This document shows positions 12,034 through 17,443 of a stretch of DNA of 64,000 nucleotides, piece after piece. The position numbers and the translations under genes were made by a program. The stretch lies in assembly GCF_000423485.1 (NCBI RefSeq), contig NZ_KE384026.1, forward strand, positions 401,111 to 465,110. The letters run 5' to 3'. The first letter of the stretch is position 1, and every line of letters starts with the position of its first letter. The stretch is from Propionimicrobium lymphophilum DSM 4903 (GTDB lineage Bacteria; Actinomycetota; Actinomycetes; Propionibacteriales; Propionibacteriaceae). The notes below the pieces were generated by a model that was given only the letters and a program-made list of their open reading frames with translations, did no database searches and was not told the DNA's origin.

Positions 12034-12061
12034 TTGCATTTTATAAAACATGCCTTATAGT
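12034..12061 (+). promoter_or_regulatory. Predicted promoter of tRNA-fMet
   Basis: TTGCAT (12034-12039) and TATAGT (12056-12061) are separated by 16 bases; the mature tRNA starts 12 bases further on. Confidence 0.5.
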
Positions 12062-12072
12062 TGATCAGACGC

Positions 12073-12146
12073 CGCGGGGTGGAGCAGTTCGGTAGCTCGC
12101 CGGGCTCATAACCCGGAGGTCGCAGGTTCAAATCCTGCCCCCGCTA
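12073..12146 (+). tRNA. Initiator tRNA-fMet (CAT)
   Basis: A cloverleaf with anticodon CAT at 12107-12109. The first base C cannot pair with base 72 (T), and the anticodon stem contains the GGG/CCC pairs of initiator tRNAs. The T loop GGTTCAAATCC is normal. CCA is not encoded. A terminator follows at once. Confidence 0.95.
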
Positions 12147-12155
12147 CGAAGGGAA

Positions 12156-12185
12156 TTGGGATCTGCAAAGCAGGTCCCAATTTTT
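12156..12185 (+). terminator. Terminator after tRNA-fMet
   Basis: TTGGGA (12156-12161) pairs with TCCCAA (12175-12180), with inner TGC/GCA pairing, followed by TTTTT at 12181-12185. The 110 bases from here to the first CRISPR repeat hold no gene and would be the upstream flank of the array. Confidence 0.85.
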
Positions 12186-12296
12186 ATGCTCTTCGACAGA
12201 TTTACCTAACCACATATAAAGCGCTTCCCTGACACGGAAGAGGTAAAAATCTGAATTGCCGTACAAGCCAGAAGGCCTAACTAAGCAGACCGCAAG

Positions 12297-12588
12297 GATA
12301 ATAATCAGTTCTTAATCCCCTTGTTAGACTTGTTGAACTGTTCGGCCATCAAGTCGATATGCTGGGAATCAGTTCTTAATCCCCTTGTTAGACTTGTGCT
12401 TATTTGTATGCATGAAAGATACATGCTGGGAATCAGTTCTTAATCCCCTTGTTAGACTTGCCTGACTATAGGTGGCATACACAATCTGGCTGGAAATCAG
12501 TTCTTAATCCCCTTGTTAGACTTGCCATCCTTTTAGCCAAGTTGAATCTGAAGCTGGGAATCAGTTCTTAATCCCCTTGTTAGACTTG
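12297..12588 (+). CRISPR. Type II-C CRISPR array, 5 repeats and 4 spacers
   Basis: 36-base repeats start at 12297, 12361, 12425, 12489 and 12553 and are separated by four spacers of 28 bases each (period 64). The repeat begins GCTGGGAATCAGTTC and ends GTTAGACTTG. Repeat 1 differs at four of its first six bases (GATAAT for GCTGGG) and is then identical; repeat 4 has one change (GCTGGA). The direction is set by the tracrRNA at 17344, whose anti-repeat pairs with the first half of the repeat, so the plus strand is the crRNA strand. Each repeat carries TGTTAGACT at its 3' end, an extended -10 promoter shape. The array converges on the cas genes. No spacer was seen to match elsewhere in the window, but this was not searched exhaustively. 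Confidence 0.97.
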
Positions 12589-12627
12589 AGCAAGGGGATT
12601 AATTCCCTTGCCAGGGACAATTTTTTT
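12568..12627 (+). terminator. Hairpin and T-tract closing the CRISPR array
   Basis: TTAATCCCCTTG inside repeat 5 (12568-12579) is perfectly complementary to CAAGGGGATTAA just downstream (12591-12602), 11 bases apart. A second small hairpin (TCCC/GGGA, 12604-12617) leads into seven T at 12621-12627. Together these would stop transcripts from the array before they run into cas2 on the other strand. The first arm is itself part of a repeat. Confidence 0.65.
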
Positions 12628-12635
12628 GCTTCTTT

Positions 12636-12959
12636 TCAATTAAAAAGTAGCAACTGTTCTGGAGCTTTTTCTTGTTCCATCTCTATTGCGTTGCAAAATC
12701 TGATGGTATTTGCCCATTGGCGATCAGATATATGCATCAACCTAATCTCTCCCTCAGAAGGAACCTGATTCTTTATTTCGGCTACCTCACGGTTGGTGAG
12801 AACGCCGCTGGGAGAATACTTTGCATAGACACTCAGCTGCGTGAACACGAATCCATTGTCAAGGAGCATGTTCCTGAACTCTGAATATCGCCTGCGCTGC
12901 CTCTTCGTCTTTGTTGGTAAGTCGAACATGCATATGCACCACATAGGATCATCTGCCAT
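12636..12959 (-). CDS. cas2: CRISPR-associated endonuclease Cas2
   Basis: 107 residues from the ATG at 12959. The ferredoxin-like start WCICMFDLPT carries the conserved Asp; RRYSEFRNMLLDNGFVFTQ and SVYAKY follow as in type II Cas2. With Cas1 it forms the spacer integration complex. The open frame reaches 12986, but the ATG at 12959 lies one base after the cas1 stop, with GGGAGG in the end of cas1, which decides the start. It is last in the cas9-cas1-cas2 operon and converges on the array. Confidence 0.95.
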   Translation of the reverse strand: MADDPMWCICMFDLPTKTKRQRRRYSEFRNMLLDNGFVFTQLSVYAKYSPSGVLTNREVAEIKNQVPSEGEIRLMHISDRQWANTIRFCNAIEMEQEKAPEQLLLFN

Positions 12960-12960
12960 C

Positions 12961-13860
12961 TCAAGACCTCCCCTGCCAGGGAACAACCGTTAGTTTCGAA
13001 ATATCGCCCTCAACGTACTGGCCAAATCTTTGCGCCAGCTCGTCAAACGCTGAGCTAATAGTTCTGCCGTCTCGTAGGAACTTTCTTGAAGAGGCAGCAA
13101 CCAAACATTTTCTAACTTCTGGATCCTCAATCGGAGCATCGCAAGGGAGATCAGCTACTGCATCATCAACCGCAGGCCGGAAAGGTTCGATCAGGTCGTC
13201 GACCAAAGAAAAGTTGTTACTTCTATTTCTATGAAAAATGCCGACTGCTGCAGATAGCCCCGCACCTACCACTGCCCTAATGCCCAAGCCTCTTAGCACC
13301 GTATAGGCATAATCCAGGTGAGCATTTCTGTTAGAAATTCCTTGTCCAGGGATCCGAACAAAATCTTCACTTCCCCAAAGCGAATGCCAATATATTCTTG
13401 CAGCCCTGGCCTCCAAATTATCCGGGTCTCCAGATCGAACTTTGGGAACTAACGCTTCAAGCTGTCTATGGTCTTGCCTACCTTGGTCTTTCAACACGGC
13501 AGCTTGACCAGAAATCTTGGCTTTAATTAATCGGCCCCAGGCATTCTTCTGGCGAGGAACAGACAATTTGGCCTGAGCCCTGTGCCTTGCTGCTATACGG
13601 TTGTGAGTTCCCCATGAGTAAGCAGCGCCTTCGGGTACGCCCTTCCAATCGCAAAAGACGACAGCAATATCTTGAGAAAATAGCCTGTGCATGGCTGCCG
13701 CAGAGAATCTAACTTTTACGCCGACGAGTAATACTGAAACATCTGCCAATGGCAAGTTTGTTGGCTCTAAATTGTCTTTTTCTATAAGCAGAGCGCCGCG
13801 GGCAGAAGATATCCTTCCCTCCATGAGAGAACAATCAACTACCCGCCAGCGCAAACTCAT
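12961..13860 (-). CDS. cas1: CRISPR-associated integrase Cas1 (type II)
   Basis: 299 residues. The metal site of the family is visible: Glu150 (DNLEARAARIYW), His210 (VGIFHRNRSNN) and Glu225 (DLIEPFRP). It has the length of type II Cas1 proteins. Its start codon overlaps the cas9 stop by one base (TAATG), so it is made together with Cas9. No csn2 or cas4 follows, which together with Cas9 length gives subtype II-C. Confidence 0.96.
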   Translation of the reverse strand: MSLRWRVVDCSLMEGRISSARGALLIEKDNLEPTNLPLADVSVLLVGVKVRFSAAAMHRLFSQDIAVVFCDWKGVPEGAAYSWGTHNRIAARHRAQAKLSVPRQKNAWGRLIKAKISGQAAVLKDQGRQDHRQLEALVPKVRSGDPDNLEARAARIYWHSLWGSEDFVRIPGQGISNRNAHLDYAYTVLRGLGIRAVVGAGLSAAVGIFHRNRSNNFSLVDDLIEPFRPAVDDAVADLPCDAPIEDPEVRKCLVAASSRKFLRDGRTISSAFDELAQRFGQYVEGDISKLTVVPWQGRS

Positions 13861-16800
13861 TACGACTCCTTCAAAGTTACGCTGATCGGTAATCCTGAGT
13901 CTGATTTAGTTCTCTCACGACCTAAAGCCGGTCTGCAAATTTTTCTCAAAAAGCTAGCTTTCGAGAACAGCAAATTAACGGAAGGACGCCACCCTTTATC
14001 GCAAATAATGACTTTACTTCCATCATTAAGTGCAACTTTCTCGCTTCCTTCAGCAGCTAATAATCTTGGCCTGAGTTTAAGTTGCTTGTTCGAGTCGAAT
14101 CCCGAGACAACCCAGCGATTCGTTTCAGGAAAATCTTTTAACAACTCGCCGATTGCCTTTTGACTGAAATAGCTATCGCTCAGATCAAGTTCAAGCTCAG
14201 ACCCAGTCACTAACCAGCCTAGATATTCTGCTTCACCTTTGAGAACGGCTTTTCTTACAGAAGATTCAGCGTTTCTCATACTTACGCTAGATGGCTTCAG
14301 TTCAACGGTGAAAACGTCGTCTGATTTATTTTTCAATAAATCATGGGTAAACACTCGAATCATGCCGTATTTAGGCTTTTTAGAACCGAATTTATAAATG
14401 CGAGCGTGGTGAATAGTGTTTCCGATTTCTGCGTAACCATTTCTCACCGGGATAGCCGCTATCTGTTTTGGCAAAATCCGCAATTCATCGTTGGCTTCGT
14501 AGAAAATATTCTTGACTCTAACTTTTCGTAATTGATTTTCTGGCAGTCCTTCAACCGGATCGAAATCGGACTGCTGAGTCAGCGCACACCACATTTGTTC
14601 TGTAGCGGCCCTGTCAATTTCTTGAAGCGTCCATGAATCGCCCACTCGTTTAGCAGCTAATGGCCGAATTGTGTCATCGTGCGCTCTTCCGTTACCAACC
14701 CTTAGCCGAACATCTTGAGTCACCGGAATGGCATCTTCAGCCAACGCGATATTAAACAACACGAGCATTTGATCCATTTGGCGCGACCAACGATCGAAGA
14801 TATTTCTCGACCCCTCATCACGACCTCTGTAGTTTTTCCAATCCTCAGCCCGACGAGTAATTCTCTGGCTTTGTTTAATATTTGATCGTTCAGCCAATGT
14901 TTTAGCCACAGAAGGCCTCATAAGCGATATTACGGCTGCATCCATCGCATGGTGTCGCCTATCAAAACGAGTCTTCACGTGGCCATCAATCAGATTTACT
15001 TTGCCCTCGAATCCTGTAGCTTTCCTAGCTTCAGCTGTAATAGCACCACGGAATACGGTAACTTTTGTTTCAGCTCCAACAGATTCGAAGTGTCCCTTAA
15101 CTCTCGCATGAAGCTCGTTGGCCATCCAAGCAACAGACTCGATGGATCTATTATCGATCTCTTCGTCCGCGCTTTTCTTTTTCAATCTATTGATGACATC
15201 GTTCTGGAAATTCCGTTGTTGCTTTAGTGTAAGACCTTCGTCTTTGATCCAATAACGAACGCGAGCGATAGCTTCCTTTACGCTTACGCTGGGGATGGTA
15301 GTGCTTTCCACCCAAACAGCAAACGGGATATTCGTTTTTGCCCTATTACAACGCACACAAACAGCAACCAGATTGTCCCTCGTGTTCGTCGAACCTGGCC
15401 CCTTTCTGGGGACTATGTGGTCCATTTCGCAGGACTGATAAGTGATCGGCTCTCCGCAGTAAGCGCACTGACAATTCTGCCTACGAACAGAAACATAACG
15501 AGTTATGTCGCTTCTTCTCTCAACCATTTGAGAGCCAAGCTTTCTATTTGCTTCGGAAACGACGCGCTGATTACGTTCTCTCCTCCGCTTAAGGTCTCTT
15601 TCGTACTCTCTAACCTGAGACTCGGAAGTGAAGCCCGATCTGGCGTGTTCGATGTTCACTGACAGAGGAGCGCCCCACTCACGTTCTGCGGCTAGCAGCC
15701 ATCGGTTGACAGCCTTAAGAACGCGGTCGACAGCAGGATTTCCGACAGGCTCTCCAATCGGATCACTCGGCGGCCTCCAGTCGTCAGGCACACCGAATTC
15801 AGCTTTCCTAGCCTTGTGAAGTTCTAGAGAATCTGAAATCATTTTTTCTGTCAACCGATCAAGACTATCGATGGAATATGCTGCCCTGCCGGCCGGAAGT
15901 TTTATTTTGTCTAAATTTTCGAGCTGTTTGTCGCTCAGACTTTCCATTAATTTATTTGCACTATCCGCTCCGGGAACATCAGGATCTAGTTCGTCGGCAT
16001 TAGACAAAAGTGTTATCAGAGCGTTCTTCTCTTCAAAGTTTGCTTCTTCCCACCATTCGACTATTGGTTTAACCCCGCACTTCGTAACCCTCGAGTGCGT
16101 TACATTAACCGGCGGAAAGGACGAAGCGCGCTCACCTTCGGGCGCGAGTTTGGAGGTGCCTTGGAGACATTCTCGAGGGACATCGAGAATCTCGGCAACA
16201 TCTCCCCAGGTGATGCCATCAGAATCATCTGGGAGCATTAGAAAATCTATTAACTTAGATTTCTCAGCAGCGTTTAGCTTGCGTAGCTCTCCATTCTCAG
16301 GATCTATCAAACGCATATTTGCAATGACAGAAACAATCCGGAACCTCTGAAAAGACAGATGCGCCTTCTCTGCTCGAGGTTTATTGTTCTGGCCAGGCAA
16401 AGAATCCTTCTTGACTCGTTTACTAGCTGAGCCTTTAGGACTTTCAGCTTTAAATACAAGATCGATCAAGGTTTTTACGATTTCGTCAGGAATCTCCTGA
16501 ACCTGCGCAATTTTATGTATCTCGTTCGCGTTATCAGACTGCATCAGTTTCCCGCCGATGATGCCGTCCTTAGTCTCGCCTTCTACGTTTTCTCCGTCGA
16601 TGAGTGAGCGCTGACCGTACTTGACGGATGGGGCGCTCCTAAGCCTTTCAGAGGCATTGAAACCAACGTGCGAAAGCACCTCCGGCAACGTCTCGCCGCC
16701 AACGAAAACAGCGCCGGTCTTCTCGCTAACTCTCTTTTTCAGATCCTCGAAAAGATCACTGTCTTCTTGCACATGGTAGAGGGATTCGATGCGCTCATAA

Positions 16801-17222
16801 GGATTCTTCCAGCCTCTATGCCTAGCGATATGCCTTAGCGCAATGGATAATTCGCGCTTTTGTTCAGAGGCTTCAAGCTTCTCCTGTACCAGGAGAAGCC
16901 TCGCCTTCCATGGCGCATACGGGTCGGGTAGACTCTCTAGATCGATTATTGGCATGCCTAGCTCGACAAGCTTTCGATCGAGCTCAGCCAAACGCTTCTT
17001 ACGACGTCGATAGAGCCTTCTAGTACGACGAGCAAACCCTGCGGAAGCGAGCCTCGTAACTGCGCTTTTAACTTTTTCAGGGTCTACTCCAGAATCATGG
17101 ATCTTAACCATGCTGCTTAGCAGCTTGACTGGCATACCGTTAGCATCAACCTGTAGGGCGCAGAACCCCACAGAATTTGTTCCTACGTCAATACCAACTT
17201 TGTAATCGATCTCATGACTCAT
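13860..17222 (-). CDS. cas9: CRISPR-associated endonuclease Cas9 (type II-C, 1120 aa)
   Basis: RNA-guided DNA nuclease. Seen in order: RuvC-I with Asp12 (GIDVGTNSVG); the Arg-rich bridge helix at about 63-85 (ARRTRRLYRRRKKR); an alpha-helical recognition lobe; RuvC-II with Glu525 (VNIEHARSG); the HNH domain with His602 (MDHIVP) and a zinc site C586/C589/C622/C625; RuvC-III with His757-His758 and Asp761 (RRHHAMDAAV); then the C-terminal PAM-interacting region. All catalytic residues are present, so the enzyme should be active. Its size is close to the compact Cas9 of Actinomyces naeslundii. The upstream minus strand has a TATATA (17262-17257) that could be a -10 box; no clear Shine-Dalgarno precedes the ATG. 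This stretch looks more AT-rich than its neighbours. Confidence 0.98.
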   Translation of the reverse strand: MSHEIDYKVGIDVGTNSVGFCALQVDANGMPVKLLSSMVKIHDSGVDPEKVKSAVTRLASAGFARRTRRLYRRRKKRLAELDRKLVELGMPIIDLESLPDPYAPWKARLLLVQEKLEASEQKRELSIALRHIARHRGWKNPYERIESLYHVQEDSDLFEDLKKRVSEKTGAVFVGGETLPEVLSHVGFNASERLRSAPSVKYGQRSLIDGENVEGETKDGIIGGKLMQSDNANEIHKIAQVQEIPDEIVKTLIDLVFKAESPKGSASKRVKKDSLPGQNNKPRAEKAHLSFQRFRIVSVIANMRLIDPENGELRKLNAAEKSKLIDFLMLPDDSDGITWGDVAEILDVPRECLQGTSKLAPEGERASSFPPVNVTHSRVTKCGVKPIVEWWEEANFEEKNALITLLSNADELDPDVPGADSANKLMESLSDKQLENLDKIKLPAGRAAYSIDSLDRLTEKMISDSLELHKARKAEFGVPDDWRPPSDPIGEPVGNPAVDRVLKAVNRWLLAAEREWGAPLSVNIEHARSGFTSESQVREYERDLKRRRERNQRVVSEANRKLGSQMVERRSDITRYVSVRRQNCQCAYCGEPITYQSCEMDHIVPRKGPGSTNTRDNLVAVCVRCNRAKTNIPFAVWVESTTIPSVSVKEAIARVRYWIKDEGLTLKQQRNFQNDVINRLKKKSADEEIDNRSIESVAWMANELHARVKGHFESVGAETKVTVFRGAITAEARKATGFEGKVNLIDGHVKTRFDRRHHAMDAAVISLMRPSVAKTLAERSNIKQSQRITRRAEDWKNYRGRDEGSRNIFDRWSRQMDQMLVLFNIALAEDAIPVTQDVRLRVGNGRAHDDTIRPLAAKRVGDSWTLQEIDRAATEQMWCALTQQSDFDPVEGLPENQLRKVRVKNIFYEANDELRILPKQIAAIPVRNGYAEIGNTIHHARIYKFGSKKPKYGMIRVFTHDLLKNKSDDVFTVELKPSSVSMRNAESSVRKAVLKGEAEYLGWLVTGSELELDLSDSYFSQKAIGELLKDFPETNRWVVSGFDSNKQLKLRPRLLAAEGSEKVALNDGSKVIICDKGWRPSVNLLFSKASFLRKICRPALGRERTKSDSGLPISVTLKES

Positions 17223-17280: not shown

Positions 17281-17311
17281 AAGGTAAACCCCTGATTCAG
17301 GGTTTTACCTT
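17281..17311. repeat. 15-bp inverted repeat between cas9 and the tracrRNA
   Basis: The left arm (AAGGTAAACCCCTGA, 17281-17295) and right arm (17297-17311) match at 14 of 15 positions with a one-base loop. On the minus strand the stem is followed by TTTTTC, so it could stop leftward read-through from ykvI before cas9. It could also be a protein-binding site. It lies just upstream of the tracrRNA promoter. Confidence 0.7.
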
Positions 17312-17337
17312 CAAAGAAATTAATGTGATGTTAAACT
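17310..17337 (+). promoter_or_regulatory. Predicted tracrRNA promoter
   Basis: TTCAAA (17310-17315) and TAAACT (17332-17337) are 16 bases apart, and TGT directly before TAAACT makes an extended -10 (TGTTAAACT). This ends six bases before the start of the anti-repeat. The motif is nearly identical to TGTTAGACT at the end of each CRISPR repeat. Confidence 0.6.
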
Positions 17338-17343
17338 CAATTC

Positions 17344-17418
17344 AGAACTGATTCTCAGTAAGAACCTCCACGTTTGAGGTTCCGAATGCTCCATAGGGCC
17401 CCTCGGGGCCCTATTTTT
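17344..17418 (+). ncRNA. tracrRNA
   Basis: The anti-repeat AGAACTGATTCTCAG (17344-17358) pairs with the first 15-16 bases of the repeat with one G-U pair. It is followed by GTAAG, a stem GAACCTC/GAGGTTC (17362-17368 with 17376-17382), and a GC-rich terminator stem AGGGCCCC/GGGGCCCT (17395-17412) with TTTTT at 17414-17418. The order anti-repeat, GTAAG, stem, terminator resembles the tracrRNA of the Corynebacterium diphtheriae II-C system (established knowledge). It is read away from cas9 from the shared intergenic region. The 3' half of the repeat finds no long complement upstream, so the duplex is short. Confidence 0.9.
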
Positions 17419-17443
17419 ATGCTTGCACTTCTAATAAGCCTGG

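Follow-up and report, generated by a model that had tools for sequence, protein, structure and literature searches.

In the type II-C CRISPR systems of Neisseria and Campylobacter each repeat has been shown to carry a promoter for its own crRNA, and the spacers of both genera are 30 nt long. Zhang 2013 and Dugar 2013 are reportedly works on such II-C systems. For 58 type II-C species, Pearson et al. 2015 (PMC4607530) predicted that the repeats contain a -10 box. The box is shifted in five of these species, including the actinobacterium Acidothermus, where it is displaced inward as in the branch considered here, and the repeat of Sphaerochaeta is printed there with TGTTAAGAT five bases inside its end. 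Repeat-embedded promoters have been described as a II-C trait in several other papers (PMC7038990, PMC10309648, PMC8092290, PMC13187072) and are treated as general for II-C by Feussner et al. 2025 (PMC12080349). The type II-C system of Clostridium cellulolyticum is similar to ours: the nine bases at the end of its repeat look like an extended -10 element, and its crRNAs contain 23-26 nt of spacer; that system lies outside the actinobacterial branch and its RNA was sequenced, whereas the present one is known from DNA (PMC7038990).

The window, by which we mean the whole 64-kb stretch of the Propionimicrobium lymphophilum genome that was analysed, contains a complete type II-C locus with cas9, cas1 and cas2 on the minus strand and a five-repeat array on the plus strand. 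The reading frames of cas9 (13860..17222, 1120 aa), the type II form of cas1 (12961..13860) and cas2 (12636..12986) are uninterrupted, and their products score above the NCBIfam cut-offs of TIGR01865, TIGR03639 and TIGR01573, respectively, that of cas9 additionally matching Cas9_a, Cas9_Topo and other Cas9 domains. The gene set of type II-C, namely cas9, cas1 and cas2, is thereby present; no csn2 or cas4 was found in the operon, where the three cas genes abut with the array next to them and no further minus-strand ORF of at least 80 aa is listed between 12636 and 16000, the scan having been confined to the operon as opposed to its flanking genes. The nearest named relatives of the Cas9 protein, at 53-58% identity, come from Trueperella, Arcanobacterium and Actinotignum. 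Judging from the anti-repeat and the motif described below, the array appears to be read convergently with the cas genes. The locus resembles those of Neisseria meningitidis and Campylobacter jejuni in the gene order cas9-cas1-cas2, in a predicted array sense opposite to that of the cas genes and in the presence of TGNTANNNT at the repeat 3' end.

The array (12297-12588) consists of five direct 36-nt repeats, GCTGGGAATCAGTTCTTAATCCCCTTGTTAGACTTG, separated by 28-nt spacers with a period of 64 nt. All five bear TGTTAGACT, a -10 box at the repeat 3' end, at positions 26-34, as the first-pass annotation of this DNA had stated with correct coordinates and spacing. Repeat 1 (12297..12332; motif 12322..12330), the first and probably the oldest, has four mismatches to the consensus among its first six bases, with its motif half intact; it is followed on the plus strand by repeats 2 (12361..12396; motif 12386-12394), 3 (12425..12460; motif 12450-12458), 4 (12489..12524; motif 12514-12522; one mismatch) and 5 (12553..12588; motif 12578-12586), the last being probably on the leader side, and the inner repeats are near-identical. 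Spacers 1 to 4 occupy 12333..12360, 12397..12424, 12461..12488 and 12525..12552. The form TGTTARACT occurs six times in the window, in the five repeats and at 17329-17337, against 0.48 expected from shuffles, a count in which the repeats, as copies of one sequence, do not represent five independent events; TGNTANNNT alone has 27 occurrences on the two strands (2.1e-4 per position). The decayed 5' end of repeat 1 (12297-12302) reads GATAAT and so resembles a -10 consensus, probably by chance.

The sixth copy lies upstream of cas9, where a tracrRNA is predicted on the plus strand (17344..17420) from an anti-repeat and a fold z of -4.0, and where a terminator stem is predicted at 17393..17414, followed by TTTTTA if the last stem base is counted. 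The anti-repeat (17344..17359) forms 16 contiguous pairs, two of them G-U, with repeat positions 1-16 only, and the 3' half of the repeat finds no anti-repeat partner; the C. jejuni anti-repeat has 24 nt, corresponding to repeat nt 2-25 (PMC4607530). The earlier observation that the predicted tracrRNA promoter carries a like motif at a matching distance holds exactly: TGTTAAACT stands at 17329..17337, and the +1 predicted from it, 17344, is the first anti-repeat base. A terminator-like hairpin, present on both strands, lies at 17286-17305 between cas9 and this promoter. At the Rfam gathering threshold the window yielded tRNAs only.

The motif with its conservation, the short anti-repeat, the decay of first repeats by halves and a hairpin upstream of the array are features of the DNA itself, and they lead us to the following reading, to which we assign a probability of roughly 0.86: repeat positions 26-34 would function as an extended -10 element, with a separate crRNA starting about five bases into the next spacer, and the tracrRNA would start likewise at its anti-repeat. 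The repeat would then be a two-part unit. Positions 1-16 would serve as the handle of the preceding guide, pairing with the tracrRNA, and the 3' half, without a partner in the tracrRNA, would be the promoter of the next guide, which would have 24 nt. Guide 5' ends would arise without RNase III, a like -10 element would place the tracrRNA start exactly at the anti-repeat, and the last repeat together with the leader may form a terminator at the array end.

For comparison we used 80 named actinobacterial cas9 loci and 100 further regions around cas9 matches, from which arrays were extracted by script. Thirteen of the 80 loci were dropped (12 in which no array was found, and L055, whose consensus was truncated), and no array was obtained from the short fragments L003-L008 either. 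Removal of spacer-sharing arrays (35 of 165) left 130, of which 97 belong to the actinobacterial Cas9 branch of the window (95 loci, the window included), 9 to other type II-C lineages and 24 to type II-A (19 loci, with 18 distinct repeats); all arrays of the latter two groups come from the class to which locus L085 belongs. The 5' sequence, and not the motif, served to orient the repeats; the consensus ends are uncertain for L009, L051, L053, L071, L212 and one array of L265. Loss of the motif in related repeats, named beforehand in the first-pass annotation as refuting, was looked for, and TGNTANNNT was found no more than three bases from the repeat 3' end in 93 of the 97 branch arrays, in 9/9 other II-C arrays and in 0/24 of type II-A. 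The four branch repeats that lack the TG (L038, L071, L081 and L085) read CGATAGACT (two), AGCTAGAAT and CGTTATACT, and TANNNT stands at the 3' end in 97/97, 9/9 and 0/24 arrays of the three groups, while none of the 130 has it at an earlier repeat position. A chance origin of the motif is rejected by the type II-A controls. The proposal in that annotation that the per-spacer design extends to this actinobacterial branch gains support from the 93 arrays; it proves less new than supposed, the box of Acidothermus having been predicted by Pearson et al. 2015 (PMC4607530).

The constraint within the motif was traced on a Cas9 tree of 64 leaves, four of 68 arrays (L038, L058, L073 and L087) being omitted for want of a full Cas9 frame. 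The motif G and the first T, the A and the final T of the hexamer show zero changes each, counts that are partly built in, since the anchor pattern demands T, A and T and admits only G or C where the G stands; the real result of the analysis is that every one of the 68 repeats fitted the anchor. Three changes fell on the T ahead of this G, 20, 6 and 3 on the three N positions inside TANNNT, and between 7 and 20 on each of the seven upstream bases. This pattern, with TG, TA and the final T fixed and the middle three free, is at the level of sequence that of a -10 box. Three further observations concern the sampled loci. L265 has three arrays with diverged repeats at one locus, all with TGATATACT near the end; L250 and L251, of a different II-C lineage, have 37-nt repeats with TGCTAAGAT one base inside the end and an anti-repeat that also looks short; and the genomes of L080 and L088 (G249 and G250) encode, in addition to the small branch Cas9, a large one (a frame above 1400 aa, type II-A-like by size and score).

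An anti-repeat was accepted by ungapped search in 62 of 68 branch loci, six having none, with a filter based on the hallmark AAN no more than 6 nt past the anti-repeat; gapped duplex searches gave false sites and spurious pairing, and the ungapped set was used for the branch. In the 62 loci pairing is near complete at repeat positions 1-13, partly by selection, falls over positions 14-16 and beyond these is at about the level obtained with swapped tracrRNAs. With register shifts allowed, tracrRNA pairing with repeat positions 20-34 rose above the 95th percentile of shuffles in 0/62 branch loci, against 15/15 type II-A and 5/5 other II-C controls, which were picked by an alignment score of at least 41 (15 of 19 type II-A and 5 of 9 other II-C loci, those left out including L250 and L251). 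Three of the type II-A controls (L226, L238 and L241) are stray repeats, 34-35/36 identical to the antisense repeat, and the remaining 12/12 lie above shuffles. By the same test, tracrRNA pairing is ruled out as the cause of the motif's conservation. In 53 of the 62 loci TANNNT precedes the anti-repeat by 3-8 nt, whereas five comparison windows of the same width contain it in 3-4 of 62; nine tracrRNA candidates lack it at that distance. The tracrRNA is accordingly predicted to start at the anti-repeat, and the promoter half of the repeat is without a partner. With a duplex of about 16 bp, classical RNase III processing looks unlikely, even though the genome encodes the enzyme.

These data bear directly on the possibility that one long pre-crRNA starts at a promoter upstream of repeat 1 and is cut by RNase III and the tracrRNA as in type II-A, the motif being incidental. 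While the RNase III gene is there for such a process, the branch tracrRNAs, unlike those of the controls, show no pairing above shuffles in the very part of the repeat concerned. A promoter would have room in the approximately 100 nt between repeat 1 and a hairpin at 12147..12195 (plus strand; -25.6 kcal/mol, z -6.1), yet a scan that depends on a -35, and is blind to extended -10 promoters, detected no plus-strand -35/-10 promoter-like site in 12050-12700. The hairpin itself, situated between a tRNA gene (12073-12146) and the array, is predicted to be an intrinsic terminator, with a long stem and a U-run on its 3' side; it is absent from a consensus terminator scan, perhaps because the stem takes part of the U-run. 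Upstream terminators occur in some II-C loci, no more commonly than expected (PMC12080349). Published RNA evidence exists for Bifidobacterium bombi (locus L073), which was found by the same Cas9 alignment and is alike in having TGATATACT at the repeat 3' end and a tracrRNA upstream of cas9 (PMC4521832). The crRNA boundaries in its small-RNA profile were interpreted by Briner et al. 2015 as RNase III sites, in keeping with a long precursor, but the legend of their figure gives spacer ten as the most transcribed, which a single end promoter does not predict (PMC4521832). That published profile may already suffice to decide the promoter question. As matters stand, we regard transcription of the array as a single precursor as very unlikely.

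If each repeat is instead a promoter, the spacing of its elements predicts the guides. If the +1 is set 7 nt beyond the final motif T, the array transcripts in the window are predicted to start at spacer base 5 (for spacer 1 at 12337) and would yield 24-nt guides (12337-12360 in the same spacer), just as the predicted tracrRNA start falls on 17344. A start inside the spacer, here predicted, is a likeness to N. meningitidis and C. jejuni, as is the decayed first repeat; the 28-nt spacers are a difference from Neisseria and Campylobacter, and so is the box, which ends 2 nt inside the repeat here, while their repeats, as printed by Pearson et al., end with it (PMC4607530). About 97% of the sigma-A starts of C. 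glutamicum have TAnnnT; the -35 is weak there, and extended -10 elements are numerous (PMC3890552). The distance from the end of the -10 box to the next repeat is 30 nt in the window, in 1744 of 1901 branch spacers and in 184 of 249 other II-C spacers (31 nt in 63). The branch mostly reaches it with a box ending two bases inside the repeat and 28-nt spacers, and 7 of the 9 other II-C arrays with a box at the last base and 30-nt spacers; in L250 and L251 the box ends one base inside (sum 31). A sum of 30 with a start at the seventh base after the box gives 24-nt guides, this 30-nt ruler resting on only about three independent states. Among 1900 spacers, the predicted +1 showed no preference for purines (frequency 0.478).

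No spacer precedes the first repeat in the order of transcription, so that its 5' half enters no useful crRNA and the 3' half alone could matter, as a promoter. With a flank of 150 nt required, 9/97 first and 1/97 last repeats of the branch were left out. Among the 88 first repeats, 48 have at least one mismatch, and the decay is worse in the 5' half in 39, in the 3' half in 6 and tied in 3 (sign test p 5e-7, in a set that replaces a smaller one of 59 arrays with p 0.057), some arrays being related, such as L025 and L026, which share their decay. For those with at least three mismatches, the window among them, the figures are 22, 3 and 2 (n=27, p 1.6e-4), and 23 of the 27 retain the motif. Wherever the consensus has the motif, the first repeat keeps it in 82/87 arrays and loses it in 5/87; the clear exception is L042, whose outermost repeat lacks the motif and has kept its 5' half. 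In the nine other II-C arrays four first repeats are changed, all four more so in the 5' half. Type II-A presents the reverse: 0/24 first repeats and 12/22 last repeats are changed, the latter worse in the 3' half in 10 and in the 5' half in 2 (7/7 in the 3' half for at least three mismatches). Decay falls on the outer half in both types, so that, judged by symmetry alone, erosion from outside may be the cause. Feussner et al. 2025 reported that most first-repeat mutations in II-C fall in the first 15 nt and suggested that the repeat must stay a promoter (PMC12080349); our comparison by halves repeats their result for a single branch and adds type II-A arrays as a control.

The retention of the motif half in first repeats is at odds with two alternatives. 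A long pre-crRNA has no need of the 3' half at that place. On the other alternative the 3' half owes its conservation to spacer acquisition, by Cas1-Cas2 or by leader pairing at the leader-side repeat, and not to a promoter role; acquisition in II-C, however, uses the last repeat (PMC12080349). The same view has to contend with a constraint pattern that is that of a -10 box, and with the presence of the same element ahead of the tracrRNA, which is not a repeat. The last repeats of the branch differ from the consensus in 10/96 arrays, with at least three mismatches in L080, L086 and L245 (worse in the 3' half in two, one tie). In these three arrays the last repeat decays with the direction of the -10 box unchanged, and the polarity of acquisition looks reversed relative to the promoters.

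What favours acquisition is found beyond the last repeat. In the window the 3' half of repeat 5 has its complement in the segment 12589..12602 (plus strand), which folds with repeat positions 16-29 into a 14-pair helix and is followed at 12604..12627 (plus strand) by a small stem-loop with a run of seven T, which the terminator scan predicts to be a terminator at the array end. This inverted leader segment after the last repeat is a difference from N. meningitidis and C. jejuni. In the branch, a helix of at least 10 pairs between the last repeat and the next 60 nt exists in 61 of 93 arrays (4/97 were omitted for N or a short flank), against 14% of the pairs obtained by swapping leaders between unlike repeats, 5/84 upstream of first repeats and 26/545 for interior repeats with their spacer. 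The helices lie within repeat positions 14-36 in 59/61 cases, L078 and L192 extending further in, and a T-run (at least 4 T within 12 nt) follows in 27/61, against 10.6% of other windows of these leaders. Other II-C lineages have a helix of at least 9 pairs in 0/8 arrays and type II-A downstream in 6/22 (1/22 at p 0.05), and five branch arrays on the cas9 strand in Coriobacteriia have none on either side tested.

Type II-A offers a mirror image, upstream of the first repeat, in 12/24 arrays, which serves as a positive control. According to Liao 2022, as cited in PMC12080349, its leader reportedly pairs with the leader-adjacent repeat in a hairpin upstream of the first repeat. The branch element is alike in pairing leader with leader-adjacent repeat; it is unlike in lying downstream of the last repeat, in involving the promoter half and in having a T-run after it in part of the arrays. 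Searches of an open-access library yielded no earlier report of such an inverted repeat copy, and the element is, as far as found there, new. The last repeat and the leader segment would make up a predicted terminator that is rebuilt at each spacer acquisition. A role of the segment in acquisition at the DNA level is possible, as no clear strand bias of G-U over A-C pairs was detected (37 vs 29), and this, together with the inverted copy of part of the repeat 3' half in so many leaders, is the argument for the acquisition alternative; the helix peaks, however, at repeat positions 19-28, off the -10 box, and conservation of the 3' half for acquisition in place of transcription seems to us very unlikely. 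Within 110 nt of the last repeat an A-rich motif, approximately (T/C)ARAAAA, occurs in 81/97 branch arrays, a count made with no background comparison, and is possibly an acquisition signal.

It is conceivable that the branch repeat is altogether a self-contained unit, whose 5' half is the handle of a guide and whose promoter half also supplies, at the leader, one arm of a terminator that is rebuilt at each acquisition, with both RNAs starting at a -10 box and fixed 24-nt guides made without RNase III. We advance this wider scheme tentatively, at somewhat less than even odds. A separate question is whether the locus is alive in this particular genome. The array could be a silent relic, with ancestral promoters and no expression, a state compatible with the promoter reading for the branch; it has only four spacers, and four tested spacer stretches of 19-20 nt gave no exact match in viral contigs. 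With cas9, cas1 and cas2 frames intact, a tracrRNA gene that retains its predicted terminator and inner repeats that are near-identical, this appears unlikely.

The per-spacer promoters are a known design, here well supported by sequence comparison, and the short anti-repeat and the leader element make the branch a variant of it. If the proposal is true, one repeat unit explains where the guide starts, how long it is and where the array ends, and a new spacer works once inserted, whatever its distance from a leader promoter. It would also explain why the repeats of the branch vary freely in the middle and not in the -10 box, and would predict which Cas9 branches need RNase III. The leader segment raises the question of whether it is a terminator, an acquisition signal or both. 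For the small actinobacterial Cas9 proteins, the native guide length would be 24 nt.
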